Assembly: GCA_037157565.1 (NCBI GenBank)
Contig: JAZHRO010000022.1
Coordinates: 3,472,001 to 3,536,000, forward strand
Direction of reading: 5' to 3'
Source of the DNA: Thalassia testudinum
Taxonomy: Eukaryota > Streptophyta > Magnoliopsida > Alismatales > Hydrocharitaceae
Length of the DNA: 64,000 nucleotides
Below are positions 22,301 to 63,920 of this stretch, one piece after another. Under the pieces are notes generated by a model. That model saw only the letters and a program-made list of their open reading frames with translations. It was not told the origin of the DNA and did not search any database. Each line of letters opens with the position of its first letter. Within the stretch, counting starts at the first letter, position 1. Made by a program: the position numbers and the translations under genes.

Positions 22301-22321
22301 ACGCAAAGTTGTCCTTAGCTA

Positions 22322-28862: not shown

Positions 28863-28887
28863 GCGATAAGGCTTATTCACAAAAACA

Positions 28888-28929
28888 ATTTAAACGGTGA
28901 AAGAGTTGCGAGGCTTACCGATGTGGGAC
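28888..28929 (-). promoter_or_regulatory. snRNA-type USE plus TATA-like box, C left LTR
   Basis: Minus-strand GTCCCACATCG (28919-28929) is a perfect match to the plant snRNA USE consensus RTCCCACATCG. It is followed after exactly 24 bases by TTTAAAT (28888-28894). Confidence 0.6.
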
Positions 28930-34363: not shown

Positions 34364-35231
34364 TCAAGACACCCAAAAAATGTTGGGTGACTATAGAGGT
34401 TCGGGGCAGATGGACCCCTTGATCAGAAAGATCGTCCACCTGAGAATTACCTGGGCAGCCAGAGAGGGAGAGTCCCGCGAAGACCCCTACACGGTAGAGC
34501 GTCCCCACGGGTTACAGGGTTTCCCCCACCCGACCTCTCTTGTCACTGCGGTTCCAGGTAGACCAGGATGGGGATCTTGACCTCTTAAGTCTACCAATTT
34601 TAGTTTAAGATCAGGGTGCCTAAAGTTTCACTTGAACTCTTAGGTATTTTGAGTGAGAAAGTGACCTAATTTTAAGGTTGGTTGACCCAAGGAGTCAACT
34701 TTACCTCTTGTTCCTTTGAGAGCTTTTGGGTCCTTTCTTTTTGGGTTCAAGTGTTTAGAGAGCCAATTGTTAAGGGTTTCTCTGAATAAGTATGTTCAAT
34801 CAATGGTTTAGGCACACTTCTTTTGGATTTTCTCCATTCTTGATTTAAGTAGTGTGTCTCTAAAACCCTAATGCTGAATCTTAGGTTGGCTCTACTTGGT
34901 CCAGTTAGTTCTTTGTTGGGTAATTAGGGCTCAAGCAAGAATGTGTTAGCCCTTAAATACCCTTAATAGTGTGCAGGACTAATGAGTTGAAAACATGCAA
35001 CTCTTTATGGTTACTAAGTATGGAAGACAGGTTAGCCCTATATTGCTTGTTCTTTTCTTTTCTTCCTCTTTAGAGTTTAGGGGTTAATAGCGAGAGGAAA
35101 AATTTACCTGTCCTCGGAGTGGTTGTCGTGCGGTTGCTTGTCTTCTTGATTTCCTGTAGCTGCACAAAAGAGGGGAGATTATCAGAAATTAAAAAGAAAC
35201 AGGAATGTTTACCTCTAGAATAGCCGTTGCT
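34364..35231 (-). other. Element C leader
   Basis: Non-coding between gene and primer site, except for a short frame at 34305-34508 that overlaps the gene start in another register. It includes a GC-rich part (34390-34570) and a T-rich part. No function assigned. Confidence 0.5.
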
Positions 35232-35248
35232 CCCCGGCAACGGCGCCA
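35232..35248 (-). promoter_or_regulatory. Element C primer binding site, tRNA-Asp
   Basis: Plus-strand CCCCGGCAACGGCGCCA equals the 3' 17 bases of plant tRNA-Asp. It lies five bases from the 5' LTR. Athila elements use this primer. Confidence 0.9.
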
Positions 35249-35884
35249 AAAACTGGTGGCGACCTTTCTCTATAGTTTTATTATTCCGTCATAGTATAGT
35301 ATAGAGAGGTGATTACCAGTTTAATACAATTTGTTACTCGGAAATAAAGAGTTCCCGAGGTCGAACTCAGGGAGCAAGTTATATTCTAGGGGTACAAGTT
35401 TCTTTTACAAAAATATTACAAAAATAAAGAGAGAGAGAGGGAGAGATAAAAATTTGGTTTCTTCTTTCTTCCTCTTTGTTTTCTCTTCTCTTTGGCTTTT
35501 GGTTTTTCTTCTTTGTTTATCTCCTGGTGTTCTTCTTCTTCTGCCTTCTGTTCTTCTTATTTCTTCTCTTCTTCAGAGCTCCTCATCTTCTTTTCTCTCA
35601 GTTCTGCCTTTCTTCAGCTTCTCCTTTCTTCTTTCTGCCTCAAACTGTAAAGCTTTTCTTCTTGCGATCCCTTGCTCAGTGGCACGGCGTCTTCGTTCTC
35701 CTTCTTTCTCTGCAGTCCTTTTACTGCAGGGCGTCGTCTGATTTTCCAATCAGACGACTTAAATCGCCGCTGCTACAGTGGTCCACCTTCTTTCAGTCTT
35801 CGTCGGCCTTCTTCTTCTCTTCTTCCATGGTTCTTCTTCTTTGTTTACCTGTGCCTGCACACTTCAAAGTTTACGTCAGTGGGC

Positions 35885-36131
35885 AAAACCTACTCTACCC
35901 CCCCCCCCCCCCCCCGGCGTCACTCTCTCTCAGAATCCGCTCATGGGATAGCTCTCCCAGAGCTGCCGGGTAGCCGGGTACGGGTCGCGCCCGGGTCCAG
36001 GCCCACCGGCGTGCGTGGTGGGCGAGGAGTGCAGGTCAGTCTAAGTCGGGTCAGGCCAGGTCCGCGGGGCGTGAGCGCGGACGAGGCCAGGTAATCGGGC
36101 GGGTGAAGGGGACCTCACCCCGTGTGCTGAG
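35885..36131 (-). ncRNA. Predicted Pol III-type transcript, C right LTR
   Basis: Counterpart of 28625-28862, ending at the T4 run 35885-35888. It contains the expanded C run (a G run in the RNA), which could hamper it. Confidence 0.25.
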
Positions 36132-36156
36132 GCGATAAGGCTTATTCACAAAAACA

Positions 36157-36198
36157 ATTTAAACGGTGAAAGAGTTGCGAGGCTTACTGATGTGGGAC
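36157..36198 (-). promoter_or_regulatory. snRNA-type USE plus TATA-like box, C right LTR
   Basis: Same 24-base gap. The USE reads GTCCCACATCA here, one transition away from the perfect copy in the left LTR. Confidence 0.5.
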
Positions 36199-38052
36199 TA
36201 AACTGAGGCCTCTCCTCGCGTGCGCCTGCTGGAAGACCGCAGCCTTGCTTCTGCAGCTGCAGCTTCGATTTTCGTCGGTTGCTGGCTGGCTGCCTTCGCA
36301 GGAGTCTCCGTAATCCGCAGCAGCTGGAGACCTGGAGTCCTCAAGCCTGGAGCGCGGGAGAAGCTGCTTCAATGTGGCGTTAATGGCGGTCGAGCCTCAG
36401 AACCTGTCGGACACGAATATGGCCTCTTGGCTTGATCAAACTACTGAGGAACCTTCGCCGTGGCACGGCGAAGGTGTTGAGCTGTGCGGCAAGCCGCAAG
36501 GCGGTGTCTGGCGGCAGCCCTAGGTCGGACTGCAACCGGAGAAATGGGTTTGTTTGGGGGAGCGTTACGGAGGTGTGGAGTGGCAGTGGAGGGGTGGGGG
36601 GTGCTCAGTGTGATGAGGCGGAGGTTCGGTGAGGGTCGGCGAGGCGTGTGAGGCTGTGGAGCGATGGGGGCATCTCGCCGGAGGGTGGCCGGAGACGAAG
36701 GGGGTGACGATGGTCAGGGTCGGTCGAGGGCTTAATTGAACAAATTGAAACCGGGGAAAGAAAGAGGAGAGGAAGGGAAGTAGTTCTAACTTAGTTGCAG
36801 GGACGAAGGGGGAGCAGCAGGGCGACAGTCGTATCGACTGTCGCCGGAGAAGAAGATGCCCAGGGGAAGGGGCGGCGGCGAGGAGAGGGCTGGAGAGGCG
36901 CCAGCTGGGTACGGCGTGGCACGGGAAGAGCGAGGGGGGGCAACCCTGCAGCTGGTAGTGCGGCAGAGCGACGAGGAGGAAGAGGAGAGAACCACCGGAG
37001 CTGGTGGGCGTCTGCCGGAGTGAGAGGAGAGGAAAGTTGGGGGTTTTCTCCGTCAGATCCGAGCTGCCTCGAACGGTGGGGCGACGGGGGGTATTTATAG
37101 GGTAGAATCAGAGAGGAGGGCGGAGGGAGACGACGTGTCTCCCTCGCCGGAGGACGTCGGAGATGGAAACCCATACCGTCCGTGCGTTCGCACGGCCGGT
37201 ATGGTGGGTTGCAGCGACCAGGGGGGTGTTCCTGCGACGGCTGACGACGCAGGGCACCCCCGGTTGACTTGCCAGCCCCTCCCCCTCACCCTGCGTGGCG
37301 CCATGCTCCGCGCAAGGTCGCCGGAGCATGGTGCTGGCAGGTTTTGGCAGGAGGGACCTGAATGCAAAGAACGAAGGAGAGTTAGGGGTAGAAATGTGAG
37401 GGTTCAAAAGTTGAGGGTCAAAAAGTAAATATATGAGGACCAAAGTGCAAAGTTGGTCAGGAAGGTTTCTTCTTAGGCTCAAGTTTTTATACATGATTAA
37501 TTAGGACCTAGGGAATTTGATGGTGAATTTTATTTCTAGATTAAACCTTGTTTGACCGGTCAATTTTTGCAAAAACCCAAATTAAGTTATTAATTGGGCA
37601 TGGTTCTCAATGTAGGTCAAAATGGGTTCTGAAGGCCAAATTGAAGGTTCTAAACCCTAGAGATTATTTTTCTATGAATTTTAGAGGGTTTATTCTATTT
37701 TTACTTTGCCTCGAACCTCGTGAATTGAAGTGGGTTTGCTTTAGGGTTACAGATTATCATTTAGTTCCTTGGAATTGCTGTAGCCCTTATCAGATCATCC
37801 CACTTTCCTTCTCATTCGGTTTGTTTGACCTGTGTTTGGACCCTGAATTACCCTGTATGCAGATTATACTGGTAAAATTGCATTTTTACCCCTTATGACT
37901 TGTTTTCTCCTTAAACTCAGAATTCTCTGAGTTAAGCCTTTCCTTGAGTTATATAGGAGCTTTTATCCTTTGTATTGGGTCAAAATGAGCTAGTTATGGC
38001 TCATGATGAGGTTCTCATCACTATTGTTTGTTGACGTGCTGGTGGCTTGTAG

Positions 38053-39635: not shown

Positions 39636-41476
39636 CGTTGTTGAACGGAATTGGTACGCGAAAAGTTTGAGTTTTGAAAACCCGTCGTTGTAGTTGCGTA
39701 AAAATTCGTCAAATCGATAATTTAATCGAAACTCTGGTGAGACCCGTGTCGTACATGGGGAGGCAAACGCTTGATAAAAAAAATGCGTTTATAATTATTG
39801 TCATGAAGCAGATTAGCTGGTTGAATTAAATCTCCGCTAGCTATCTACTTAAAAAATACTTAATAGAAGAGATGGAAAGAATAATACACATAAAGAGAAA
39901 ATAGGGAGAGAATGAACAAGAATTTTATAACCATAGGTTTATGTCTATTGCAACTACTTGCTACACTAGAAAGCGGGAAATTTATACTAGAAAGCGATAA
40001 AAGAGAAGGGGATCAGAAGTTATCCTCCTCAATGGCTGCTTGGAGAATGAGCCGCATTGATGGAGCACCCAGACAAGAGTGGTGAGATGCTGGACAAAAG
40101 AGGACGAGGATGGACGATAGAATAGTGCAATGCCACAGCGGGATCCGCTTCCTGAATGGTGGTGAGAGGACAATAGCAGGATGCTCCACGAAGGAGGTGA
40201 GAAGATGGAAAATTATTTTTATAACTCTAATGGAGCATTCAGGGTATGGGACCAGCTTGTAGAGCCTTGGAGGGGGTCAAAGAAGAGAGAAAGGGATGAA
40301 GAAAATGAGTGGTTGGGGCCCCCTTTCATAGTTGTAGAGATTGGGGGCAAAAGGGTTTTTTAAGGCCTTAAACATTAAGTGCTAGGGTCTTTAGTGACAA
40401 ATATAACGGTCACTATAGGTGAACATCGGTGAAGGTGCACCTCTTCTCCTTTAGTCGTTCCTCGTGTGCGCCCACGTCCACACAATCTCAACCATTTGAT
40501 CAAGAGATCAAACGGCCTATGATCACGCACACTACTTCACCTTTGGTTGTTAAGCACGCTCGTGTGCGATGGCACGTTCAATCGTGTGTCATCGCACGTG
40601 TGTGGCGTGATCTCTCATCTGGTACATGAGGAAGAGCCACACGGCCATTGCACCATGCCCATTTGATGTTGATCGTGTGGCGCAATTTCAATTGGGTGCG
40701 CCTTCAACGAATCTGCATCCACGTCGTAATTCGAGCTTGCATCACACGTCATGCGTAAGGTGCACGATCGCTATGCTATGCTCGACTCTTTGTCGAGTTC
40801 TTGTTTTAAGGGCTATTTGCTCTCAACTGTTGGATGGAAATACAACGGTCAAGATCAACCGAGCCCTAGCCTTCAAAAGATGTTGCGTGGCTTGGGGTGC
40901 AACGTGGCGTGTTCTCAGTTGTTGGATTGATGATCCAACACTTGAGATGCATTGATCATTGCTTAAAGAGGTGGAGCAGGAGGCTTAGGCTGATGTTGGG
41001 CAGCTGGGATGGCACCACGTGGCACCATCCTGGTCGTCGATCTTCTCTAACTTGTAGATGGTGCCATGGATGTCATATTGGATCGATTTTTACATTATTG
41101 GGTTGCAATTGTTGATCTAAGCCCATCTGTGCAGTTGGATTTGTTGTCCAAGGTACGAATTTAACACCACCTTGGCTCTTAACCTCTGATCTTTCTCAGA
41201 CTCTATCTGATGCTACGAAAATCTGATTGCGGCGATCTCAGAGTCATTGAACTCTAATCGTCACCCTGATCAGATCTATATAGTTGGATATTCAATCCAA
41301 GGTCCCGATAACTATCACCTTGTCCCTAGCCACAAAAAGGAAAAATTAACCTATAATTTGTACAATCTAACCTAAATGCATAATGATGCATGCTATACAA
41401 TATTTATAAGGATGAATGCTTCTATGGCACTAGAAACACGCATGAATAGACATTTTAGGCTAAGTAGATATATACA
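39636..41476 (-). mobile_element. Solo A-type LTR inside H integrase
   Basis: It starts at or just after CGTTGTTGAACGG and ends TATATACA, with flanks CATAA (39631-39635) and CATTA (48438-48442, after element G), a 4-of-5 duplication. Element G sits at its very end. It holds the inverted TGACG remnant (about 40390) and the palindrome at 41008-41029. Confidence 0.75.
41008..41029. promoter_or_regulatory. 22-bp palindrome with CACGTG core, solo A-type LTR
   Basis: The best intact version outside G: GATGG CACCACGTGG CACCATC is perfect except at two arm positions and contains the G-box CACGTG. Confidence 0.55.
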
Positions 41477-43022
41477 GATGAAGTGAAAATTCTTTGTGAA
41501 ATGATTTGAGCTTAGAAACCCGTCGTTGTAGTTTGATTAGCAAAAAAATCCATCGATTAGATAAAATTTATAACCGAAACTCGAGGTGACTCCCAGGTCG
41601 AACACGGAGTCGAATGTTTGGTTTGAAAAATCTACATTTCATTTTTTATTAGTTTTTATCATTTTATCTTTTATAATTTTTTTGTATTTTTATCAAACAA
41701 GAGATCAGGTCGATGAAAACTTTATCTACCTACAAAAATAATGCAAAAAGAGAGAGAGGAATAATCATATATTGATGAACAAATGTTTCTACAACTATGA
41801 AAGTATGAAAACTATACTAAAAAAGTGAAAAGATAAAGATAGGTGAGAAGAATCCCCCTCGATGGTCGCTTGGAGGATGGTTTGCTTTTACGGTGCCCGG
41901 ATGAAGGTGGTGAGGAGCGGGATGAAGGAGAACAGCGACGGAGGGAGGAGGATGGGACGGGATGGCATCATGGTGAGGATCTACTTCCCAAAGTAGGTGA
42001 GAAGATGGCCGCGAAATGCTCCACGAATGGGGATGAGAGGAGGGAAAATATTTGATTCTACTCTAGAAGAGCATCTCGAGCTTGGGACAAGCTCTCTATA
42101 GAGCCTTGGAGGTGGTGCGGAGAAGAAAGGAAGAGATGAAGAAAAATGGGATTGGTAGGGGTCCTTTTATAGTGTAGGAAAGGACCAATTTCGTATGCAG
42201 GATATTTAGTGATGGTCATAAACGTCGCTGAAGATCTGCTGCAAACGTCGTTGAAGATCCTTCTCACACGTCCCACGCGCAGTGCCTGCACGTGCCCATT
42301 GCACTGGCTGCCTCCATTGGCACGCGATCCGAGCGCCCGTGTTACATGCCTCAGCATGCTACACACCCACGTGCTACCTTGAGCGCCCGCTGCAGTACTG
42401 CGCTACGCGCTCACTACCTTGTGCACCCCCATGTGCTTCTCACTGTGTTGGCTTGCTCACTGCTGCACCTCCACACATGCGTTTCTCCGCACGTGGATGT
42501 GCCTGTGCTGCTATGCACGTGCAGTGGCACGTGTGTGCGCATGGGCACCCTGGGTTGCACCACATGGCGTGATCTGGGGCATCCATCTTCTTTCCTTTGT
42601 AGGGGCTGCTACAGAAATCGGATTGAGTCGATTTTCACGCCATTAGGCTATGATCATCGGCCTGAATCCATCTGTGCGATCAGATTTGTCGTTTGAAGCT
42701 TCGGATTGCATCACCTAGTCCCTCGACCATTGATTTTCCTCAAACTGCATATGGTGCTATGGGACTCTGATTAGGGCGATTTCAAAGGTGTTGGACTCCA
42801 ATCGTCATCCTAATCAGATTCGTATGGTTGGATTGTCAATCAGAGGCTTCGAATTAAATCTCCTATCCTGGTCATAAAAGGATGCAATTAACCTAAAATA
42901 TACACAAACTACTCTAAATGTAGAATGATGCATGTTATGCAATTTTTATAATATGGAATGCAAATCTAAGCCTAGGAATATGCATGAATAGGCATTTTAA
43001 CCTAAATAGACGTGTTTACATC
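41477..43022 (-). repeat. Element G 3' LTR (left), B type
   Basis: It runs from GATGAAGTG to GTTTACATCA, with a (GA)n tract near 41750, a minus-strand TATAAAAGG (about 42165), a degenerate TGACG pair (about 42210), and a degenerate palindrome (42554-42575). Confidence 0.8.
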
Positions 43023-44689
43023 ATGCCCTCATGCCTATCTTTTGCTAGTCCCATGCAAAATCAAACTATATGCTATGTATAAAATAGAATTAGGGCTCGA
43101 TCACTTAATGTATTAGTTGTTTATTAACAAAAGGAAATTTTGACTAAAGGCCTAAACTACGAAGACCCAACAGTGCTCGGGTGCCAGCCAAAATGCAGAT
43201 TGCCCAAGTAGTTGCCTTATTTGAAAAGGGAAGATACATGTTTTTGCTTTTTCTTTTTTTCTAATTTTTTTGGAATTTTGGAGTTTGAGAGTTTCAGGAT
43301 AAGTTTTTATGGCTACCTGACCCGTCCAAGACTCGAAAAGGATTTTAAGTTCTAAGCATCTTGTGAAAGAGTGATAAACTCACTAGGCGACTATAAAACA
43401 GATTTTAGGTTTCTACGGCCCTAGCTGACCTTAAGAATTTCTGCCTAAAAGTTTATCTTTCCGATTGGTAGCATTTTCCCTAGTTTTTTCTTTTTTTACG
43501 GGGTCAACACAAGGGCGAACCCAGTGTATATCTCCTTGGCTTATTCTACTTCTCCACTTCTTCCTAAGTGTTTAGAAATTATTTATGCATTTTTGTAAGT
43601 TGGGTTATGGACAACCGGTCGATGAGCTATTACCACCGACTACTTGCCAGCCATACTGATGTGGTGAAGTGTGACTTTATTATTATTTTTCTCATTTTCT
43701 CCTTTTTTTCTATTTTTTTCTTTTTTCTTTTTGAGCATCATTTTTTTTCTTTTTCTTAGTAGGTGGCTTCCCTGATCTATGATTTACATAAAGGTAGCAA
43801 GAAGAGAATGGTCATGTGGCTGGGCTCTGGACAACTAGTCAATGAGCTGTTACCACTGACAACTTGCCAGCCATACCACCCTAGACGATTCATTACCTAC
43901 CCAATTTTCGTAAAAACTACTGGAAGGTGAGTTAGTGCAAATAGTGTGTAGATGCTTAGATTATAAATTCCCTCAAATCAGAGGGTGGGTTGATAAGTCA
44001 TGTACTTATCATCCTAATTTATTTACTAACTTTAAATAAATTTAACTTGGCGAGGACTCGAGACCAAGTCCACATTCGAGTGGACCCCCAAGCTGATTAA
44101 GGCCGAAGACCTGAAGAGGTCCTAAAGTATCATTTTCTAAAGTTAATAACTTCCAAATGCCTAAGTTCTCTTCTCCTAATTCTTTTTTTTTGTAAGGAAA
44201 ATAAAAGAAATTCCATGAAGTTAACAAAATGATTTCAGGATTAATTATCCACCCCCAAGCCTAAATGATGCAATGTCCTCATTGTAGAAATAAAGGCTTG
44301 AAACGGCCGGAATAACAGAATATCACCTGAGTTGCATGACAATCCAGTTAGCACCACAGAGAATGTGGAATATACACACGTGCTAAGTTTAATGCCTTTA
44401 GCTAGGCATAATATACATACAAGGAAGAAATTGAGAATTCACAAGTTTGGGTCAAGTTCAAAATAAGAATATTAATCCTCAAACTCGCTAATAGAAGATG
44501 TCCACAGACGTGGACCAGATTATGGTGTAGACGCATGCCCCAGGGTCAAGTGGTTCTAAGGTTCTAGATGAAAGTCACCCAGAACCTAAGATTGTTGTAT
44601 TTGCGGGGCCGGGCTTGCGGTTTTGCAGTATGCAACCCAAGACTAAAGTGTTGTACAACGGGTTGATCTGATTCACTAAGTTCAAATGT
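43023..44689 (-). other. Element G polypurine tract and 3' non-coding region
   Basis: Colinear with B and A. It holds the repeat pair (43597-43657, 43817-43877) and the hairpin (43992-44010). No gene. Confidence 0.65.
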
Positions 44690-46159
44690 TCACTTAAAAT
44701 TTAGCTTAGAAAGATAGACAATAATTCTGAGTTTAGGTTGCATGTCAAAGATATCGTAAGGGTCTTGGTAGAAAGTAGGTGGTTTCAGGTCAACTAGAAC
44801 CCTTAGATCCAAAATCATAGTTTCCTCAGAATTAGCTTCCCAGATTTTAACTTCCAAATTTCTATCCTCTAAAATCAAGGTTTCTGGGACCTCCAGATTG
44901 TTGTACACCCCATCTAATTTACCCAAGTCCAGAAATCATGGCTGAATTAGAATTGACTTGGGCACAATGATCTCAAAATTCTGCTCTTCATGGTGCGATT
45001 GAGGAATGGGGTCACTAATTGAATTATCAGGATTCAGATCCTCCAAGTTAACTCCAACCGAATCAAATTCCTCTATTATCGGGCTATCAAATGGTTTATC
45101 AGATTCCTCAGGCCTATTTGTCTCACTAAAATCATCTTCCTTAAGCTCAAGTGAGACTTCACCTAAAGACTCTTTACCCTCAGAGTCAAAGAATTCTTGA
45201 TCCTCATTTACATATGTCTTAAAATCGTATGTCATTTCATGATCCTTGGAGGCATATTTTTCTTCGTTCCCTGGCTCGGGGACCTTGGGTGAAGCAATGG
45301 GTTCATCTTGAATCGGTTGCTTTAGACCAACCTGGTCATCTTTGATCTTCGAACATGTATCCCCCCCAACAGGCACCTGAATAGGTTTAGACATTGGCTC
45401 TCCTGAAGGGAGTTCATCTTGAGAATCATCCCAAGATTAGACTAAGGCAACCACAAATTTCATCCTCAACCTCGACAATTTCCCAAACAGAAACTCACCC
45501 GGGCCCTTATCCCTGACATCTTGGAGCAAATCCAATAAAGAGCTATTCAACTCATCAATCATTTTGATCATAGGCTCCAATGCTTCAGTGTATGGTGTTG
45601 GCTGAGCTTCTAAAGATTGTATGGTGTTCCTCAAGTTAGCCAACACTCTATCTTGGACCTGGTTCATGTGAATCGACTGGTTTGGCTCAGGGTTGGATGG
45701 GTTTGGGTTCAATCTAAGGGAGTCAAGGTATTGAGGTTCTCGGGTCCCTCTCGAATAGTAGGTCATTTTAGGTTGTTCAAAGAATGGAGGTGACCTATGT
45801 TCAACATAATCCTGGGGAGGGCAGGTGTTATAATCGGCATATCCTTCTTGGTTGTAGATCTGGTTAGGTTGATCATCAAAGGGTGGAGATCTATAATCAT
45901 TGTAGGCGTGAGAAGAATAGTAATCATAGTCTTGTTGTCCAGGGTTAGGCCCTAGACATTGAGGTCTGGATTCATATCCCCAATCAAAGTTATCCCGGCT
46001 AGTGGATGGGTAATTATAAGTCAAGTTAGGATAGTAATCATCTTGGGGATAAGTGGTGGTAGGAGGGTAGGATTGGAATTGTGTGTATGCTGTAGAAGAA
46101 TACATGATGAAGTGGAAGGGAAAAATAGAAGAAAGGTGCCTTGCAGTACAATCAATCAC
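44690..46159 (-). pseudogene. Gag-like protein of element G, near complete
   Basis: The best copy of the A/B/G protein. The frame starts at 46159, or more likely at the internal Met before YSSTAYTQFQS near 46105. Order: a Tyr/Pro/Asp-rich low-complexity N-terminus with TYPQDDYYPNLTYNYPSTS, then a putative coiled coil VQDRVLANLRNTIQSLEAQ and LLDLLQDVRDKGPGEF, then a basic GKLSRLRMKF. A stop follows at 45437; the acidic region goes on in 44936-45394, and after another stop at 44690-44926 with LKPPTFYQDPYDIFD. Only two breaks are needed to disrupt it. There are no enzymatic motifs and no zinc knuckle. Role inferred as Gag-like. Confidence 0.6.
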
Positions 46160-47290
46160 TCCTATCCTTAAATTGGGTAGCTTAAGGACTTATGCTTCAG
46201 AAATGAACTTTGACCACACAACGAATTTGGTGTTGTCCTCACTTCCGAAGGTGGTAAGGTTGGGCTGGCGAAGCAGGGGGAGTGTGTCCCGAGGGCCACT
46301 AATTATGCCAAACCCCTGCTTGCTTAAGTCATTTGACATTTAGGCCCCCCAACTTAGCACCTTTTGAAGTAAGCAGACGTCATTAATTCGACATGTGTTC
46401 AAGAAAACACCCTGAAACGAACTCAATGAATCCTAGGGCCAACGTCTACTCAATTATAATTAAGGCTTAGGATGATTGTGTTCTTGGAATGTAATGGGCC
46501 AAATGTGTGTGTGTGCACAACTAAGGTTTGAAAACAAGGTTATTTGATGATGTGCCTTTTAGGGTTTAACCTTGTTTAGTAGCTTTTAGGGTTTAATCTT
46601 TAGGTTCGTTTAATTAGGTTCAATGGAACACCCTAAGTTTTGAAAGCATTGGTGATGATATATTCCTTTAAAAATCAGAAATAATGTGGAGTGCCTGGTT
46701 AGTCCCTAAAAATTGAACCCTAAGTGGCAAGCTACTTGATGAATCAATTTTAAATTGAGTGGTGTGGCCCAAACAAATCAATCAATTGGCCTATTCTCCC
46801 CACGGATTAAGGCACACAAGAATGTTTGACCTATTCAAATTTTCTACTTACTTATTTGTGTGTTAAGTTGAAGGGTACTGGGTCCATAGGTCAGATCCCG
46901 GGTTAAGTGGTAGAATCAAAGTGATTGTGTGCCTTAGGATGAGAAATTATGGGTGTTAAGTGTGTCTCTTTTAAGTTAATCCCACAAGAAGAGAAGAATT
47001 TTTTTCCCATTTTTAATTTATATGGAAGGGTGAGGTGAGGTGAAGTGACAATCAAACAATCGAGATCTAACCTATGGTTTATGCAAGCACCTAAGTTGAT
47101 TTGAGTTTGAGCTATTAAGTGATGGAATGGAAACTAGGGTGGGGATAAACTTACAAAACTCTTTAACCACACTTTACTCCAATCTATCCGTTTTGGCTTG
47201 CCTTGGAAGGGTACCTGTAATCACAGAAAGAAAGGAGCAAAGTGAGCTAAAAAGTTAAGGAAACATGGAAAAAAACAAGGAGCGTTGCCT
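46160..47290 (-). other. Element G leader
   Basis: Non-coding, colinear with the A and B leaders. The GCACAAC right arm of the leader stem is kept, but the left arm has been lost by a deletion near 46495. Confidence 0.5.
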
Positions 47291-47307
47291 CCCCGGCAAC
47301 AGTGCTA
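47291..47307 (-). promoter_or_regulatory. Element G primer binding site
   Basis: Plus-strand CCCCGGCAACAGTGCTA, three changes from the tRNA-Asp 3' end. Confidence 0.75.
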
Positions 47308-47323
47308 AAATGATGAGGCAGTA

Positions 47324-47774
47324 TAATGTAGGCACATCTATTTAGGTTAAAATGCCTATTCATGCATGTTCCTAGGCTTAGATTTGCATTATATATTATA
47401 AATATTGCATAACATGCATCATTCTGCATTTAGAGTAGTTTGTGTATATTTTAGGTTAATTGCGTCCTTTTATGGCTAGGAGAGAAGGAGATTTAATTCG
47501 GAGCCTCGGATTGACGATCCGACCACACAAATCTAATTAGGATGATGATCGGAGTCCGATGCCTCCGAAATCGCCTTGATTAGAGTCTCATAGCACCATA
47601 TGCAATCCGAGGAAGATCAATGGCCAAGGGACTAGGTGACGCAATCCAAAGCTTCAAACGACAAATCCAACTACATGAATGGATTTTGGTCGATGATCGC
47701 AGCCCAATGACGCGAAAATTGACTCAATTCAACTTCTGTAGCAGCCCCTAAAAAGAAGATGGATACCCCAGATC
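47324..47774 (+). repeat. Inverted-repeat arm 1
   Basis: Reverse complement of 47977-48432 along its whole length, with scattered mismatches and small gaps; for example it opens ATGTAGGCACATC against GATGTAGACACATC. Confidence 0.85.
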
Positions 47775-47958
47775 TGTGTGCCCGTGTCGTGCGCCTTTGC
47801 ACGCTACGCACCTACTGTTCCCTTACAAGCCTGCTGCTGCACTGTGCTACGTGCTCACTGCCTTGCATGCCCCCATGTGTTGTGCATTGCGTTGCTGCAC
47901 GCGCGCGCCCTTGCTGCCGTGTGCGTGCGGTGACGCGTGCGTGTGGATGGGTACCCTA

Positions 47959-47980
47959 GATCATGCCACGTGGCATGATC
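47959..47980. promoter_or_regulatory. Perfect 22-bp palindrome with G-box CACGTG
   Basis: GATCATGCCACGTGGCATGA plus TC is its own reverse complement. It lies at the inner edge of arm 2. Confidence 0.6.
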
Positions 47981-48432
47981 TGGGGCATCCATCTTCTTTC
48001 CTTTGTAAGGGCTGCTACATAAGTCGGATTGAGTTGATCTTCACGTCGTTGGGCTGCGATCATCGACCTGAATCCACCTATACGATCAGATTTGTTGTTT
48101 GAAGCTCCAAATTGGGTCACCTAGTCCCTTGGCCATTGATCTTCCTCGGACTGCATATGGTGCTACGGAACTCCGATTAAGGCGATTTCAGAGGCGTTGA
48201 ACTCCGATCGTCGTCTTAATCAGATTCGTATGGTCAGATTGTCAATCCGAGGCTCTGAATTAAATCTCCTTCTCTCCTATCCATAAAAGGATGCAATTAA
48301 CCTAAAATATACACAAACTACTCTAAATGAAGAATGATGCATGTTATGCAATATTTATAATATGGAATGCAAATCTAAGCCTAAGAAAATGCATGAATAG
48401 GCATTTTAACCTAAATAGATGTGTCTACATCA
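47977..48432 (-). repeat. Inverted-repeat arm 2
   Basis: The normal-orientation end of the B-type LTR, ending TCTACATCA. Confidence 0.85.
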
Positions 48433-49505: not shown

Positions 49506-49808
49506 TCAAGCCTGGTATTTGCCATTTATCTGGTTGGTGACCAACTGAGAGTCTGTGTGAATCTCCAACGAGGCGATCCCCATGTACTTCGCTACCTGGA
49601 TGCCCGCCATGATAGCCTCATACTCTGCCTGATTGTTGGATGCAAGGAAATTCAATTTTATGGTGTACTTGTGAGTAGCACCATCTGGGGCGGTTAGGGC
49701 TATCCCTGGCCCGGCCCTGGCTATCATGGATGAGCCGTCGACGTAGAGTCGCCAGGGGAGTGAGAGGGAGACGTTGGGGTTGGTGAATTCGATGACAAAG
49801 TCCACCAA
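49506..49808 (-). pseudogene. Element H RNase H
   Basis: Open segment of 100 codons: WRLYVDGSSMIARAGPGIA contains the first catalytic Asp, NNQAEYEAIMAGIQVAK the Glu, and IHTDSQLVTNQINGKYQA the next Asp. The DGSS / AEYEA / DSQLV wording is that of the extra archaeal-type RNase H of Tat-lineage gypsy elements. It degrades the RNA strand of the RNA-DNA hybrid. Confidence 0.85.
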
Positions 49809-49849
49809 GACTTGTGCCTTGATCGCCCTTCATAGATGATATTCAATGT

Positions 49850-51060
49850 TGGATTCTGCCAGCTCCATAGCCCATTTGATCTGTCGTGCTGACCTGTGGG
49901 CCTGTGGAGCATCCTTCGGAGGGGGTGGTTCGACAAGACCCTTATTGCATGTGCCTGGAAGTTTGGGTGTAGCTTTCGAGTTGCAGTAACAAGAGTTAGC
50001 CCCAATTTTTCGATAACTGTGTACTTGGACACAGTACCTTGGTAGGTTTTACTGACGAGGTACACGGGGCATTGGGTTCCATCTTGGTCTCTGACTAAAA
50101 TGGTGCTGATGGTCGAGGTCGAGGCGGCTAAGTATAGGGAGAGGACTTCTCCCGGTTGAGGAGCTATCAGGATGGGGGGAGGACTTTAGAGTGCATCCTT
50201 GACTTCTCTAAGTCCCTTTGGCAATCGAGAGTCCAGCGGGCGACGTTGTAGCCATTTCCCTTTTTTACACACTCGAAGAAGGGTAGGCATTTGTCGGAGA
50301 AACTGGACAAGAATTAGCCTAACGAGGCGACCTTGTTGACCAACGACTGTAACCCCTCCTACGTGCCTGGCAGCTGCAGGTCATCAATCACCTAGATCTT
50401 TTCTGGGTTGGCCTTGATCCCTCGGCTAGAGACCAAGATTGCCAAGAACTTTCCAGCCGAGACCCCGAAGGTGCACTTGTCAGGGTACAGGCAGAGGCAG
50501 GTGTTCCTTAGAATTTGGAACACCTTAGCCAAATACTCTAAGGGTTGCAAGAAGTTTGATCCCTTCACAAGCATATCATCGATATACACCTCAAATGATT
50601 TTCCTATTATTTTTGTGAAAATCAAGTTTACAAGAACTGCTACATGGCCCTAGCATTTTTTAAGCTAAAAGGCATAACCCTATACTGGAATAAGCCCCTG
50701 TCGGTGATGAAGGAGGTGTGGGGCTTGTTGGTTAGGTGAGGCTAATTTGGTGGTACTTGCTGTAGGCATCCAAAAAGGACATGTGGGACTAACCGCTATA
50801 GGAGTCTACCAGGGAGTCGACCCTTGGCAAAGGGAACTCGTCTTTGGGGTAGGCTTCATTGAGGTTGGTGAAGTCGACGCACATAGGCCATTGGCCTTTT
50901 TCAGCATCATGACATTTGAGAGCCAGGCCGCGTACAGGGATTCTTTTATGAATCCTGCATTTAAGAGTTTCTGCACCTCCGCCTCAGCCGCCTACCACTA
51001 CTCTGCTGACTTGTGCTGGTGTGACTACTTGATCGCGTGGGTGCTCACCTGAATATTGAG
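49850..51060 (-). pseudogene. Element H reverse transcriptase, degenerate
   Basis: The clearest piece is 50392-50625, with VYIDDMLVKG (catalytic YxDD, about 50567-50590), LRNTCLCLYPDKCTFGVSAGKFL and GIKANPEKI, standard gypsy RT text. Flanks to 51060 read as RT with many stops and frame changes; for example ESQMS and CGYAF-like pieces match the region before the active site. Not functional. Confidence 0.8.
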
Positions 51061-55160: not shown

Positions 55161-55205
55161 GTCCCACATTGTGGGCACCAAACCTCGCACAGCACATAAA
55201 TAAAT
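55161..55205 (+). promoter_or_regulatory. snRNA-type USE plus TATA, LTR E
   Basis: GTCCCACATTG (55161-55171, one change from the USE consensus), 24 bases, then ATAAATAAAT from 55196. Confidence 0.5.
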
Positions 55206-55225
55206 TCTCTTCCAAGGGCTCACTG

Positions 55226-55377
55226 CCTCCACACGAGAGGTAAGGTGCCTCTCACACCTTACTCTCCACTCCTGACCCGTGATACATTGCCTATGGGTCT
55301 GGTCCCCTTTCCGGATCCGATAACCCGATTAGTGCTCTGATTAGGTAGAGTATCTGAGGAGGGTAGGGGTAGGTTTT
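55226..55377 (+). ncRNA. Predicted Pol III-type transcript, LTR E
   Basis: The start is inferred. It contains the stem GAGAGG (55235-55240) / CCTCTC (55248-55253) and ends at the first T4 run, 55374-55377. Confidence 0.35.
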
Positions 55378-55552
55378 GCACCTCAGGCCTCGTGCCTGTG
55401 GAAGCCTAACACTTAGTGTCTCTAAGGCAAGTTTCTTCTTTGTGCTTGGCACCCTTGTGCCTATTTTGAGGGTTTAGAAGTTGAGGCTTCTGAGGTTTGC
55501 CTCCGACATCTAATTGTGGCATTGGTTAAGAAACTGTGGACATATTGGCTAT

Positions 55553-57316
55553 TGATGAATGGAATTTGGTACGCTAAAAAGTTTGAGTTTTGAAACCCTG
55601 TTGTTGTAGTGTGTAAAAATCCATCAATTAGATAAAATTTACCGAAACTCTGGTGAGTCCCGGGTCGAACACGGGGAGGTGAATGTTTGATCAAAAATCA
55701 CATTGGAATTATTATCACGAAGTAGATTAGCTGGTCGAATTAAATCTACCCTAGCCATTCTACTTAAAGAATAAACAATAGAAGACAGAGAAAGAATAAT
55801 AAAAGAAAGAGAAAATAAAGAGAGAATAAACAAATATTTCATAATGATAGAAACATGTTCATTACATTTATGTGCTACACTAGAAAGCAGGAAATCTATA
55901 CTAGAAAGTGATAAAAGAGAAGGGGATGAGAAATTATCCTCCTCGATGGCTGCTTGGAGGATGAGCCACGTTGATGGAGCGCCCGGACAAGTGTGGTGAG
56001 ATGTTGGACAAGGGAGAACAAAGACGGAGGATGGAACAGGGCGACGTCACAGTAGGATCCGCTTCCCGAATGGCGGTGAGAGGAAACTTGTGGGATGCTC
56101 CACAAAGGAGGTGAGAAGATGGAAAGTTATTTTTATGACTCTAATGGAGCATCCCAGGTATGGGACTAGCTCAAAGAGCTTTGGAGGGGGTGAGAGAAGA
56201 GAGAAAGGGATGATTTACAAAGGGGAGTGTAGGGTCCTTTATATAATTGCATACATGGGGGCAAAAAGGTCTTTTGAAGGCTTGAAATTGATGGCAGGGA
56301 CTTTAGTGATAGATATGCACGTCGCTGAAGCCCCCATATCGCTAAAGCCATGCCTTGATCTCTGTTGTTTGCCTTTGATCCCAGCGCCCACGATGCGCCA
56401 CGTCGACGTTGCCTGATCTTCATGTGTTAGGCATGCCCTCACATTCAAGTGCTACTAGCAATCTGATCAAGAGATCAGACGGCTTAAAATCCACGCTCGC
56501 CACTTCAAATTCAGATGTTCCACATGCCTACATGCAATCGCATGTGGATGCCCGCGTCATCGCGCATGTATGCTTGCTTTCGTATCTAGTGCTGCCACGT
56601 CTACACTCAATTGGCCGCCTGCGCTGCATCCAACAGCTGAATTTAGCCACATCTGCTCCTTCACCTGATTTGAGGTGAGGTGGGGCTTAAACCTGCGCCT
56701 CCCTCTTTATAGATGTCCTCTGAACCAACGCGCTACGCTTAAGTTTGTGTTGCATGCTCATGACCGTTGGATCGAGATCTAACGGTCGAGATCGTGCGAC
56801 CTTTGATGAGGAGGAGATGGCCAGGGTTGTTGGGTGGCAGTGATGGTACCATGTGGTGCCATCATGGCCGTCCATTTTCTTTAACTTGTAGATGGTGTCA
56901 GAGATGTCAGATTGGACTGATTTTCATGTCGTTGGGTTGCGATCGTCGATCCGAACCCATCCGTGCGGTTGGATCTTTCATCTAAGGTTTGAATTTTACA
57001 CCACCTTGCCCCTTGACCTTTGATCTTTCTTGGACTGCATCTAATGCTATGGAAATCTGATAGGGGCGATCTCAGAGTTGTTGAACTCCGATAGTTGCCT
57101 TGATCAGATTCGTATGGTTGGATCTTCAATATGAGGCCTCGATAAATATTGCCTTATCCCCTGACCACGAAAGGGGAAAATTAACCTATAATTTATACAA
57201 TCTATCATAAATGCATGATGATGCATGTTATGTAATATTTATAATGATGAATGCTTCTATGACACTAGAAATATGCATAAATAGGTATTTTAGGTCAATT
57301 AGATGTGTACACATTA
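55553..57316 (-). repeat. A-type LTR of element Q
   Basis: It starts TGATGAATGG and ends GTACACATTA, followed by the A-type polypurine tract. The palindrome is at 56842-56863, the degenerate TGACG pair near 56300, and a CCGTTGGATC inverted pair at 56763-56785. Confidence 0.8.
56842..56863. promoter_or_regulatory. 22-bp palindrome, Q LTR
   Basis: GATGGTACCATGTGGTGCCA plus TC; the centre is ATGT instead of ACGT. Confidence 0.45.
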
Positions 57317-57928
57317 CACCCCCATGCCTATCTTTTGCTAGTCCCTAACAAAAGGATATGCTATTTATAAAAGAATTAGGATCAGATTTCTTGGGCAAAA
57401 GTTATTTTTCAACACTAGGAAATTTCTACTAAGACCTGAACTGCAAGAAAACAACAGCACCCAGGTGTCTACCAAAATGCAGACCACCCATACCATTGCC
57501 TTATTCAAAAGCAAAAACATCTTTTTTTCTTTTTCTTCTTTTCTAATTTTTTTTGGATTTTTGAGTTTAGAGTTTCCGTGTAGCTTTCTACGGCTACCCA
57601 ACCCACCCAAGACTCGAAAGAACTCTAAGTGCTAAGAATCTTTTTTTATGAAGTGATAGACTCATTGATCGGCAATTAGAATGGACTTCAGGTTTCTACG
57701 CCCCTAGGTGACCTTGAATAGAAGTTCTGCCTAAAGGTGTATCTATCTGACCGGTAGCTTTCTCCCTACTTTTTATTTTTATTGGGTCAAACAAGGGCGA
57801 ACCCAGTGTATATCTCTCCAGCTTCTTCTACTTCCTCTCTTCTTCCTAAGTGTTTGGATTTAAATGTGCATTTTGTGAGCTGGGTTCTGGACAATCGGTC
57901 GATGAGCTATTACGACCGACAACTTGCC
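57317..57928 (-). mobile_element. Element Q internal remnant (polypurine tract and first repeat)
   Basis: Colinear with 4561-5170 of element A, up to the phrase GACAACTTGCC, where it stops abruptly inside the first 60-bp repeat. The rest of Q is missing. Confidence 0.75.
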
Positions 57929-58968: not shown

Positions 58969-59127
58969 AAAACCCACCTCTACGCTCCTTAGAAATTCCT
59001 CTTTATTTCTCTAATTAGGCTCGCAATCGGGTAATCGGATCTGGGTAGGGGTCCAGGCTCACCGGGTGTGCAAGGTGAGCGAGGAGTGTAAGGCAGGGTG
59101 AGTGAGGGGCCTTACCCCTCATGTGAA
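58969..59127 (-). ncRNA. Predicted Pol III-type transcript, LTR F
   Basis: The start is inferred about 29 bases past the TATA. Stem GAGGGG/CCCCTC at 59104-59120. The first T4 run on the minus strand is at 58969-58972, in GGGTTTTGC, giving about 159 bases. Confidence 0.4.
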
Positions 59128-59155
59128 GAGGCAGTAAGGCTACAACACATTTTCC

Positions 59156-59197
59156 TTTTATACGGTGTTTGTAGTTCACCCACATACGATGTGGGAC
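59156..59197 (-). promoter_or_regulatory. snRNA-type USE plus TATA, LTR F
   Basis: Minus-strand GTCCCACATCG (59187-59197) is a perfect USE, followed after 24 bases by TATAAAAGG (from 59162 down). The clearest case in the window. Confidence 0.65.
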
Positions 59198-61012
59198 TAT
59201 GTTCCCTCCTCTTTCATGAGCAGTTGCAGGTGAAATGTGAGCGATTGAAGCTGCTACGATTGGGTGCTTTTCCCAATTGGGAGCCTGGGAAACTTCTTGG
59301 GAGTGGTCCACATCGATTGGGAGTAGTGCGTGGTCGGAGGAAGGAAATCGATGACAGAGGAGTTGCGGTGATGAATGGTGGTGACATGATGTTCGGCGAA
59401 ACCTGAAATCCACGAAAATGGCCTCTCGACCTGATTAAACACGTTCAAAAGCTTCACTTTAGCATGGCGAAGGTGTTAGTGGTGTTTTGGCGACGGTTGG
59501 CAGCTGGAGGAGGCCTGTTGGTGATGGAGAAGATGATCTGAGGTGCGTGTGTTCGGTGGGGTTCTCAGGTGGTCGTAAGGCAAAATTAGGTGAGGGCTTT
59601 TGATGGTGGAGTCGCGTCGGAGCTTCTAGCGACAATGGCTGGGTGTTTGGTGGCCGGTGATGATGGCACGGGCTTGTTGGAGCATTTGTCAGAGGCGGAG
59701 AAGATGAAGGGGGAAGGGTGATTCGTTAGCCGAATTAAGGTTGTAGTGGGTGGAATCTACGCTAGGGAGAGAGAGAGAATATACCTAAATTATGGATGAA
59801 AAGGGGGAGGATCATGCCAGCTTTGATTGGCCAGTGTCGAGGAAGGTGAAGTTCTCCGGTGATGAGAACGATGAGGAAGATGGGGTCTGGAAGCCTCTGC
59901 TTGGTACGACAAGAGGTGGAAGAAAGAGAGGAAGAAGATCCCCCTTCCTATCATACCTGGTAGAGGGCAACGACGGAGGATTGAGGAGCTCGCTGGAGTC
60001 ACGGCGGAGGTGGCCGGAGGATGAAAAAGATGAAGAATTTTAGGCCAAACCAGACTAGTTTTGGTCACTGAGCTATCTAGAGCTTATATAGAGCTCATAA
60101 CCGAGCTCTAATTGAGGAAAGGTGGCCAATTTGTTCAGAAATTGGGAAACAAGAAACCCACGTATTTCATGGGTTCGCTGGGGCTCAATATAGTGAATTG
60201 GAAGCCAAGATCTTGCTAAAATGATTCTCTACAATGTGAACACTAATCCCAGCAAATTTGGTGGGATTTGGAGTCGATTTGATAAGGTTTTGAGATGTTC
60301 AAAGCTCATCTATAGGTCGGTTGACCTAACAATGGTGGCAAGGACTAAAACGTGAAGAAGATGAGAAACTAGGGGGCTAAATGCAAGACTTTTGAAAGTA
60401 AGGGTCTGATTGTGAGAAATAGAGATTTAAGTGACTAAAATGCAAACTGGGTCAAAATGAACTCTGATTGGACCCAAATATTGGCCTTAACCTAATTTTG
60501 ACCCAAGGAATCTAACGATTAAGTTGGATTTGAGGTTTGTCCAAGTTTGACTGGGAAATTTGCATAGAAGCCCAAATTAGGGTAGAATTCTGTCCGAAAC
60601 TTTGTTCTAGGTCAAAATAGGTCTAGATGGTCAAATCAAGGGTATAAAACTGCTTAAAATATGTTTCTATGAATCTTAGGATGCTTAGATGAATTTTATC
60701 CTAACCAGAACATGTTCAATTTGAGTAGGTCTGAAATTAGGGTTTTATGTGCTGTTTTAGTTCTCGAAATCCGCAAAACCATGTTTCTGTCTGTGTTGAT
60801 CCACTTTTTAGAATTTAATGCTCATTTGACCTTCAATTAACCCCTGACAAACCTCATGGTTACTCTGCATTCATGATGTGATGATAAAACTACATAATTA
60901 ACCATTTTTAATGATTTCATCTCAGAATGGATTTGCATGGAATTACTGTCCTCAGGTGATCATTTAGGGGCATTTGTTCCTTGATTTCAACTAATTCAAG
61001 CTAGTTATTGAA

Positions 61013-62383
61013 ATTGAACTAGAAGGCAGATGAATAGTGAATTTAAAAAATATTGTAAGACAAAAACACAATAAAAAAAAGAGGTATAAGATTTTTAAGT
61101 GGAAACCCAAATCGGTTGAAAACCACCACTTAAGCCAATCCCTTGACTTAGGATTTTCGATCACAAAGTGATCAATCCACTAACCACACTACGTAAACAA
61201 GGGTAGTGTACTTCAATTACAAATTCCATCTCCTATCCCTAAACGGAGGCTTCTCCCTTTACAATGAAGAGATGGGGACCCGACAAGCTGGATACCCAAA
61301 CTACAATAATAGAATAAGAATGAAACAACACCTATTGAACACCCCAAAATATTAATGACTTCCTTATATATTAAGCATAAAAAGAACTCCCTAAGAATCA
61401 GCAGAATGAAGTGCACCGGGAATGTTGATTTGCCTTTTGATCAGAGTGTTGGCTCAGCATAAGGGAAATAGGAAGCAAGGAGTAGTAAGTGATTTTCTAG
61501 GGAAATTGTATCTCAAGAAGTGTGTTTTGCCAAAGAAGGATTGTAATCTATTTATAGGCAAGTTTAGAACCTTCAAGAAGACTTTGGAGAGGTCTCCTAG
61601 ACATTGGAGGCAAGTTCTAAAAGATTGGGACGAAATCCAACACAAATCAAAGCAATTATGATTCCAACAGCAATATCAGACATCTGATTTTTGGGTCAGA
61701 CATCTTATAGGACATCTGATTCTATTAGTCAGGCTCACTGTTTTCATTGGATTGAAACAGGGCCGTCTGATATATTCATATAAGATGTCTGATACAAATA
61801 TTGGACGTCTAATTATAAGTGGGTTCATTCCTGCATTCCTGTTTGACCAGATCCAAAAAGGGTTCTAAATTTCAAGGAACAGACGTCAATTTGGACATCT
61901 GCCATGTTTTCTAGATGTCTGGAAAGAGATTAATGACATGCTTTGGAAATCTAAGTGTCGAACTTTGGTTTTTGATAAGTGTGCTCAAAATAAATGGGCA
62001 ACGGTCCATTGTTAGACATCTGGTGATATGTCCAGACGTCTTAAAGTGTATTTTCCCATTATACTAACACACCAGAGAAAAAATGGGCATTAAAGTCTAA
62101 TAGTTGGTTTAAGGATGTCTAGGGTATGTGTTGGACGTCTAGATAAGGCTATGAACGTCTGATATAAGATTGCTTCAACTAATGCCTAAGAGTTGAGCAT
62201 GTAAAGGCAAGGCTATGGGCAATTAGACATCTGAAACATTGATCAGATGTCTTAAAGTTGAAAATCAGACGTCTGACAGTTGTGCTGGATGTCTGATTTG
62301 TGTCTTAGTGTTAGGTTTTTGTTTCTAATTTATCCTAAGTGTAGAGAGCCTAAGTTAGCTATTTATAAGTTATGTTTGGGGGC
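61013..62383 (-). repeat. Sirevirus-type LTR remnant
   Basis: No credible gene. Read on the minus strand, the 61070-61130 part (GGTTTTCAACCGATTTGGG and on) is typical of the end of Sirevirus LTRs. The right half holds the palindrome cluster 61675-62310, like that at 23625-23965. It is cut at 62383 by the solo LTR. Confidence 0.4.
61675..62310. repeat. Cluster of AGACGTCT-like palindromes, second block
   Basis: Roughly twenty occurrences of CAGACGTCTGA, GACATCTGAT and variants in 635 bp. Confidence 0.65.
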
Positions 62384-62836
62384 TGATATAGACACATCTA
62401 TTTAGGTTAAAATGCCTATTCATGTATGTTCCTAGGATTAGATTTGCATTTCATGTTATAAATATTGCATAACATGCATCATTGTGCATTTGGAGTAGTT
62501 GTATATATTTTAGATTAATTAGGTCCTTTTTATGGTCAGGAGAGAAGAAGCCTTATTTCAGGGCCTCCGATGGATGATCGGACCGTACGGATCTAATTAA
62601 GATGACGATCGGAGTCGAATGCCTCTGAAATCATCTAGATCGGAGAATTGTAGCATCGTATGAAGTCCGAGGAAGATCAACGGCCAGGGGGCAATGCGAC
62701 ATTCATATGGGTTTCGGATGGAAAATTCGATAGTATGGATGGATCCAGAGCGACAATCGCAGTCCAGCAACGTGAGAATCATCTCGATCTGAGCACTGTG
62801 GCACCCTCTACAAAAGAAAGAAGAATGGATGGGCCA

Positions 62837-62858
62837 GATGATGCCACATGGTGCCATC
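62837..62858. promoter_or_regulatory. 22-bp palindrome, solo B LTR
   Basis: GATGATGCCACATGGTGCCA plus TC, centre ACAT; about 370 bp upstream of the TATA box. Confidence 0.45.
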
Positions 62859-63204
62859 CAAGCCGCCCAACGTCGGCCAGTAGCAGTGCACGTGCACAGT
62901 CGCAGCCGCATGCAGTGCACGCGCGCAGCACAACTGCCACCACTTACAGCTCAACCGCGCACAGCAGCAGCGCAGCACATGCCAGCGCACTCATGTGCAT
63001 GGCGTAGGGAGAATGGGTCGTGATGTGCACGCCAGCGGGGCAGGCGCAGATCTTCAGCGACGCGCGCCTTTATTGATGCTTGCAGTTGTCACTAATGGTC
63101 TACGTGCGCCAACAAGAGGATTTAAAGGGAAGATCTTCAGCGACAGCTGCTGTGATGTTTATGGACGTCAGTAATGACCCAGATGCGAATTTGATCTTCA
63201 TCCT

Positions 63205-63218
63205 CTACTATAAAAGGA
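63205..63218 (+). promoter_or_regulatory. TATA box, solo B LTR
   Basis: CTACTATAAAAGG, colinear with the TATA boxes of the B and G LTRs on the other strand. Confidence 0.6.
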
Positions 63219-63920
63219 CCTACCCACCACCATTCCAAATCATCTCTTCCTGTCTTCCTCTCACCACCTCCAAGGCTCCAGAGAGAGCTTGTCCCAAGCC
63301 TGGGATGCTCCTCTAAAGCAAAACCAAATAGTTTTCCCTCCCCTCATCCCCATTCGTGGAGCATCCCATGGCCATCCTCTCACTGCCCTTCGAGAAGAAG
63401 ATCCTCGCCGCGGCGCCATCCAGCCCCATCCTCCGTCCTCCGGTTCCATCCTCCTTCATCTCGCTCCTCACCACCTTTCTCCAGGCGACGTCAGAGCGAG
63501 TCGTCCTCTGAGCAACCGTTAAGGGGGATTTCTCTCACCTCATTCTATCTTTTTACGCTTTCGTAGTGTAGATTTTCCGCTTTCGTAGTGTAACAAACAA
63601 TTCTTCATGAATGGATGATTGTTTCTCTCTCTCCTTCTCTCTCTCTCTTTTATATTTGCAAGTAGATTAGCTAGATAAGCATTTGTTGATCTGATCTCTT
63701 GCTTCCTAAAAATACAAAAAAAATTAGAAAAGATAAAAATGACCAAAAACAAATAAAATCAAAGCGCGGTTTTCAATTAAAGTAAACATTGCCTCCCTGT
63801 GTTTGACCCAAGACACACTTTTCGAGTTTCGGTATAAATTTTATTTGACCACGCAGTTTGCAACTATGACGACGGGTTACTTGTAACCCTGATTTCAAAC
63901 TCACGAAACACGTGCGATCA

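Follow-up and report, generated by a model that had tools for sequence, protein, structure and literature searches.

An snRNA-type promoter signal, probably of the RNA polymerase III class, nested in the long terminal repeats of retrotransposons in Thalassia testudinum

The window analysed here is a stretch of 64,000 nucleotides from the T. testudinum genome (C13:3472001-3536000; assembly of 4.26 Gb in 237 contigs), in which the long terminal repeats (LTRs) of four groups of retrotransposons, C, D, E and F, carry the USE motif of plant snRNA genes followed, after 24 bases, by a TATA-like box. A sequence-only reading of this DNA had described the arrangement, and its coordinates and boxes are borne out at all four places. 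In F, which lies on the minus strand, the exact USE GTCCCACATCG (59187-59197) is followed after 24 bases by the box TATAAAAG (59155-59162) and, 65 bases after the start of the USE, by a conserved GCCT that represents the predicted start (59129-59132). The first run of four Ts (T4) after this predicted start, GGTTTTGC, is found at 58969-58972, and a distal TATA box, TATATAAG, is located 893 bases upstream of the USE (60083-60090).

C is a complete element on the minus strand, whose LTRs are 98.6% alike and which is flanked by the target site duplication AATAG. Its 5' LTR occupies 35254-38020 (with AATAG adjoining at 38021-38025) and its 3' LTR 27990-30751 (AATAG at 27985-27989); one LTR alone measures 2.77 kb, the USE lies 1,822 bases into it, and the two USE sites are 7.3 kb apart. 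The 3' LTR carries an exact USE (28919-28929), the box TTTAAATT after 24 bases (28887-28894), a first T4 after the predicted start (28626-28629) and a distal TATA box, TATAAATA, 901 bases upstream of the USE (29823-29830). In the 5' LTR, the USE (36188-36198) has CG changed to CA, at position 10 of TMCCACATCG, and the same distal box TATAAATA is present at 37092-37099. The primer binding site TGGCGCCGTTGCCGGGGA (35231-35248, minus strand) presumably resembles the tRNA-Asp site of Athila, which would be a possible likeness to Ty3-gypsy elements of the Athila/Tat type. A 690-residue open frame within C (32294-34363, minus strand) gave no Pfam match and no homologue among 6,852 candidates at E 0.001, and its position suggests that it is gag.

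D and E are on the plus strand. D carries a USE with one change, CG to CA (22260-22270), the box TATATCAC after 24 bases (22295-22302), GCCT as the predicted start (22325-22328), a run of five Ts (T5) as the first T run thereafter (22482-22486) and a distal TATA-like box, TTTAAAAG, 901 bases upstream (21359-21366). The USE of E also differs by one base, CG having become TG (T at position 9; 55161-55171), and its TATA-like stretch CATAAATAA (55195-55203) can be read with a gap of 23 or 24: ATAAATAA is at 24, and CATAAATA is at 23 when E is aligned with the other LTRs. GCCT follows at 55225-55228 and the first T4 at 55374-55377; a distal TATA box was looked for in E and not found. The distance from the start of the USE to GCCT is 65 bases in D, F and both C LTRs, and 64 in E. 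All of the one-base variants of the USE (22260, 36198 and 55161; three of the five sites) are changes of CG to CA or TG, as decay of a methylated C would give. In F (59181-59197) and E (55163-55175), the USE overlaps an inverted repeat (CCCACAT..ATGTGGG, CCCACATTGTGGG).

With up to one mismatch, the motif occurs six times in the window against 1.24 expected, a number reached in none of 100 shuffles. The sixth match, GCCCCACATCG at 9626 on the plus strand, is in another repeat and is without a TATA at 24; it belongs to one member of a repeat family whose blocks, 70-88% identical and in several orders and orientations, lie at 2790-14000, 39638-48430, 55552-57928 and 62383-63844. A Pfam scan that covered ten window frames assigned 26310-26879 (plus strand) and 49727-50185 (minus strand) to other elements, through matches to Transposase_28 (PF04195) and to the reverse transcriptase RNase H families PF17919 and PF17917. 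A 45-base tandem repeat of 6.5 copies, which fits also as a unit of 90 or 135, is located at 25574-25865.

The four LTRs had been taken for separate families, and this view does not survive alignment: D and F are 61.7% identical over 2,392 bp (E 2e-168), C and D 61.1% over 689 bp, and E and F 59.8% over 988 bp. By these alignments, which run along the LTR, C, D, E and F are one homologous lineage, so that their shared spacing within the window comes by descent and not from four independent origins. The indel-free gap in these four LTRs is not telling on its own, because gap-free windows are common in the alignment (40% of 24-column and 26% of 43-column windows), and E is shifted by one base. 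The USE itself behaves differently. In the four-way alignment, where 22% of the columns are invariant and ungapped, TAGTCCCACAT forms an invariant run of 11 columns; the next longest is 5, and a run of 11 was reached in one of 20,000 column shuffles. The stretch between USE and TATA is only 25-43% identical, as compared to 46-55% overall. The USE is thus the longest invariant block of these diverged LTRs, and on the evidence of the alignment it is kept beyond what descent would give. Selection, which had been argued from shared spacing, is backed by the invariant USE and by the genome-wide spacing described below, but not by the gap shared among the four window LTRs, which is not significant by itself.

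At the scale of the genome, GTCCCACATCG occurs exactly 53,017 times, against 391 for a reversed-pattern control. HWTAAA follows the USE after exactly 24 bases at 27,969 places (reversed control, 0), whereas the 21 gaps from 25 to 45 sum to 791 (control, 9), some of which also have a box at 24. These genome-wide counts cover gaps of 24-45, and shorter gaps are covered by a sample consisting of the first 100 exact matches among those listed, all from contig C1 and with near-copies included. In that sample, 75 of the 100 listed matches have a TATA-like box at 24; the stricter pattern [TC][AT]TAAA is found at 24 in 57, at 23 in two, at 29 and at 32 in one each, and at 33-36 in none. A peak at 24 in a broad set of copies had been set beforehand as the test of the arrangement, and within this genome it is clearly present. 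Among viral contigs, the motif with a box at 22-26 gave four scattered matches, which were taken as chance. Two listed matches (L022 and L069), along with some of the copies counted genome-wide at longer gaps, represent a minor third group, with CTATAAATA-type boxes, GTGGCCTATAAA for example, at gaps of about 29-33, a spacing nearer that of RNA polymerase II (Pol II). Another four of the 100 listed matches (L016, L054, L061 and L078) are in a different repeat that has the exact 11-mer with no TATA at 24.

Clustering of the 100 listed matches gave groups of 69 (lineage 1), 13 (lineage 2) and 4 (no box), with small rests, several of whose matches align to the group of 69 over more than 1 kb. Across 37 representatives, information is concentrated in the USE and the TA preceding it, in the box (columns 35-42) and in GCCTC, which occupies columns 65-69 after the USE start; the GCCTC columns reach 0.70-0.78 and begin 29-30 bases after the first base of the box. 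Lineage 2 has TCAGTCGTC where lineage 1 has GCCTC. Although the two lineages cannot be aligned around the site, the gap of 24 bases is common to both. Profiles of the lineage 1 flanks had no significant match among 14 lineage 2 loci (best E 0.27 upstream and 0.88 downstream), and a weak similarity of about 60-64% is seen from +330 to +800 downstream. This weak similarity, together with their alike distal TATA boxes, makes it probable that the two lineages are distantly related and did not arise independently. A profile of the downstream unit run on the fetched loci recovered, beyond the five of the window, a single displaced match (L073); since it brought no further unselected unit, it does not allow the rate at which the USE is retained to be estimated without bias.

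The distal TATA box is also a shared feature. In 55 of 78 loci of the lineage 1 type, [TC][AT]TAWAW is present at -935 to -860 of the USE, while other 75-base bins hold at most nine. All four lineage 2 upstream stretches that were read carry CTATAAATACCC or CTATAAATAGCC at -2087 to -2135, and their left LTR edge is near -2.87 to -2.90 kb. The distance to this box therefore varies by more than 1 kb, from about 0.9 to about 2.1 kb, while the gap between USE and proximal TATA stays at 24. Pol II transcription of the element's own RNA most likely depends on this distal box.

Family C offers a record of where this RNA begins. In its 3' LTR, a segment with the ends GTAAGCC...TGTGCAG (28596-28918, minus strand) begins right after the USE and comprises the TATA box and the next ~240 bases, and so the downstream unit with its covarying hairpin and conserved T4 (see below); the same segment is found in the 5' LTR (35855-36187, minus strand), and it is absent from spliced relatives. 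Precisely this segment, from GTAAGCC to TGTGCAG, is missing from both members of the LTR pair L035/L036, 10.6 kb apart. The exact spliced junction was counted 203 times genome-wide (control, 0), and 83 of the 100 spliced junctions listed form same-strand pairs 4.6-14.7 kb apart, mostly at 6.9-7.0 or 10.5-10.7 kb, the former class fitting the window element C minus one intron. The length of the intron is 321-334 bases in six unspliced copies, and one copy (L060) has AT, not GT, at the donor. In a tree of 22 spliced and 9 unspliced rows, built on the 1,000 bases that precede the USE, the two kinds of copy are mixed, with six changes of state, at least four of them forced by well-supported branches, and a single spliced clade is rejected (AU p 2e-64); the spliced pair L105/L106 groups with the unspliced pair L019/L020 at >99% identity. 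A real intron has thus been removed repeatedly in family C, its loss being inherited by both LTRs. Recombination between LTRs could have spread the loss among copies, but splicing is still needed, because the ends of the loss are exactly GT..AG. One all-spliced branch of four rows (support 100/100) hints that copies without the TATA have multiplied, and that the unit may be dispensable in cis. The copies with intron loss are also a natural experiment, in which the same LTR exists with and without the TATA and the unit.

Since the loss is present in both LTRs, the template RNA of family C must have begun upstream of the USE and crossed it; a start downstream of the proximal TATA would place the USE in U3, and the loss would then not ordinarily reach both LTRs. 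This bears on the view, put forward before, that the USE-TATA unit is the promoter of the element's own RNA. For family C, intron loss in both LTRs contradicts it. In the form in which RNA polymerase III (Pol III) would transcribe the element from the USE-24-TATA site, the idea draws on the spacing peak and on the precedent of Cassandra, as given in part of PMC10886601, and we regard it as highly improbable, given the many C-family elements that are without the intron in both LTRs, the T runs between the site and the LTR end, and the conserved canonical TATA box upstream.

The proximal site has features of a second promoter. A gap of 24 bases between USE and TATA is the figure for the Pol III class, and monocot type 3 Pol III promoters want a further upstream element. 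As in type 3 U6 and U3 genes of plants, which combine the same RTCCCACATCG USE with a TATA-like box at the shorter spacing and a start about 30 bases after the TATA (28-30), the present units have a box at 24 and a predicted start at GCCT; they differ from those genes by their place within LTRs, in a transcribed region of a Pol II-type unit, and by their tens of thousands of copies. According to the sections of PMC9845283 drawn on here, the USE of U6 and U3 promoters is one helical turn nearer the TATA than in snRNA genes transcribed by Pol II. By its spacing only, and under a class rule that comes from published papers and general knowledge rather than from this genome's own U6 genes, the USE-24-TATA unit is probably a Pol III promoter. 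The proposal of a Pol III-type promoter is thus upheld as to the arrangement, which recurs in two lineages and tens of thousands of copies, and goes as far as the spacing as to the polymerase. The portion of PMC12268498 consulted reports that a 70-base promoter comprising USE and TATA is enough for Pol III in dicots and that the intervening bases may vary, describes the TATA of plant Pol III promoters as loosely defined, refines the USE to TMCCACATCG and holds that A at position 10 inactivates the HbU6.2 promoter. In the window, the USE is intact in F and in the 3' LTR of C, and D and the 5' LTR of C carry A at position 10.

The proximal unit could instead be a second Pol II promoter that uses the snRNA-type factor and yields a capped RNA with a shorter leader, for example for protein synthesis. 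LTRs with two TATA boxes are known (BARE, in the part of PMC3485330 covered), some of the boxes at 24, TATAAAAG among them, are good Pol II boxes, and runs of four or more Ts are frequent from about +600 on, so that an RNA reaching the coding part could not be made by Pol III. An ordinary Pol II LTR promoter, however, needs no USE; the gap is 24, none of the 100 listed matches has its box at 33-36, and the Pol II class of snRNA genes has the longer gap (PMC9845283, same sections). We consider this alternative rather unlikely.

If the proximal unit is a Pol III promoter, its product would be short. In 27 of the 37 representatives, the first T4 occurs at +213 to +255 from the predicted start, mostly as AGGTTTTGC, and in lineage 2 a T4 or T5 is located at about +270 to +290, within a small inverted repeat in most rows. 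T4 is a weak terminator. Its first occurrence precedes that in shuffles of the following 500 bases (mean 232 vs 358), and T4 is not depleted at +1 to +160 (six runs against 5.3 expected from shuffles). In many families, the 3' splice site TGTGCAG is just downstream of the T4, which may therefore be its pyrimidine tract. With no depletion and a possible splice tract, a T4-free unit closed by a terminator is a hint only. The unit has RNA structure, with mixed support from folding. Folding of 29 of 31 lineage 1 representatives (L053 and L086 were dropped) gave a consensus fold with z -9.5 relative to column shuffles, with a conservation index of only 0.18. Hairpin H3 covaries, with 20 double-change cells against a shuffle mean of 5.0, and none of 500 shuffles reached 20; the seven double changes of H2 (2.5 in shuffles, reached by 15 of 500) are modest, and H1 and H4 have none beyond shuffles. 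This structure could equally fit the leader of the element RNA.

The latter point is one of three that speak for a reading in which the site is no promoter now, and the block is kept as an element of leader RNA or DNA (as neighbour of a splice donor or as a protein site), or was merely amplified with successful LTRs: the downstream structure fits a packaging leader, all window copies belong to one homologous lineage, and in C the USE abuts the splice donor. We find it quite unlikely, in view of an exact 11-base snRNA element whose TATA is spaced exactly as in the class, also in a second lineage, of a gap whose sequence drifts while its length stays, and of other families in which no splice donor follows the USE.

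We thus favour, at a probability of about 0.6, LTRs with two promoters, of which the proximal one would be a nested snRNA-type promoter, probably for Pol III, that serves a predicted short structured RNA; the polymerase, start, end and very existence of this RNA we infer from the DNA. The distal TATA, which precedes the USE by about 0.9 kb in lineage 1 and by about 2.1 kb in lineage 2, would give the element RNA by Pol II. That RNA would read through the USE, and in family C the intron adjoining the USE on its downstream side would sometimes be removed by splicing. The proximal USE-24-TATA, spaced as in the U6/U3 class, would be a second promoter kept by selection, from which a short structured RNA would begin at GCCT (lineage 1) or TCAGTCGTC (lineage 2) and end some 240-280 bases on, at the conserved T4 or T5. 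As a guess, such an RNA might serve as a stand-alone copy of the structured leader that aids packaging, or as a decoy for silencing.

A bolder version, which we hold only tentatively, would make the intact LTR a double gene: a Pol II leader holding a U6-type Pol III gene, in family C within its intron, for a structured RNA of about 240-280 bases that has spread in tens of thousands of copies and acts in trans. In that case the RNA could act as a mimic in packaging or dimerisation, as a silencing decoy, or through a draw on the snRNA promoter factor, and one genome would have received tens of thousands of snRNA-type promoters by the spread of a retrotransposon.

In the literature covered, LTRs carry Pol III signals only in the form of internal 5S or tRNA promoters, and only in short non-autonomous elements. 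Cassandra, Helenus and Ajax (TRIMp3) are short elements with internal 5S or tRNA promoters, and for autonomous LTR elements the source reasons that Pol II is required, long RNA being beyond the reach of Pol III (PMC10886601, in the part covered). The present LTRs fit this rule for autonomous elements, the Pol III-type signal being, on our reading, an extra. They share with the TRIMp3 elements the presence of Pol III-type promoter signals inside LTRs; those elements, as the same part of the source describes them, are short and non-autonomous, up to about 1.3 kb, and their 5S- or tRNA-derived promoters are thought to make the template, whereas here the LTR of C measures 2.77 kb, 7-11 kb separate the LTR sites (~10.9-11.0 kb between the USE sites of the pairs L019/L020 and L064/L065), the signals are an upstream-type USE and TATA, and in family C the template would be started elsewhere. 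Searches of the window with Rfam (gathering score) and ARAGORN gave 0 matches each, both for a known structured RNA as the identity of the unit and for 5S- or tRNA-derived sequence in the LTR. The long LTR, early TATA and long R of Retrosat2 and the two TATA boxes of BARE are further likenesses, and the portion of PMC3485330 consulted describes neither a USE nor snRNA-type spacing for them. No description of a USE in LTRs was found in titles and abstract openings of the open-access literature; subscription journals were mostly outside this scope, so that it is no proof of novelty.

If our reading holds, these large LTRs would be built differently from those described, with a type 3 promoter lying within their transcribed part and a Pol II promoter preceding it. 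Such a design would raise the questions of whether the small RNA is made, what its role would be, and whether the USE copies compete with host snRNA genes for their factor. The copies in any case offer a large natural collection of USE-TATA promoters that vary while their spacing is fixed, and the sharp peak at 24 bases needs an explanation even if the short RNA is absent.

Near-identical USE neighbourhoods recur at G000:C1:477902-525780 and 6027010-6185025, in steps of 28.4 kb (L004-L009) and of ~52.7 kb (L079-L082); these are segmental or tandem duplications. At G000:C4:33301717-33312137, seven USE matches on the minus strand, several of them about 1.3 kb apart, resemble a tandem array.
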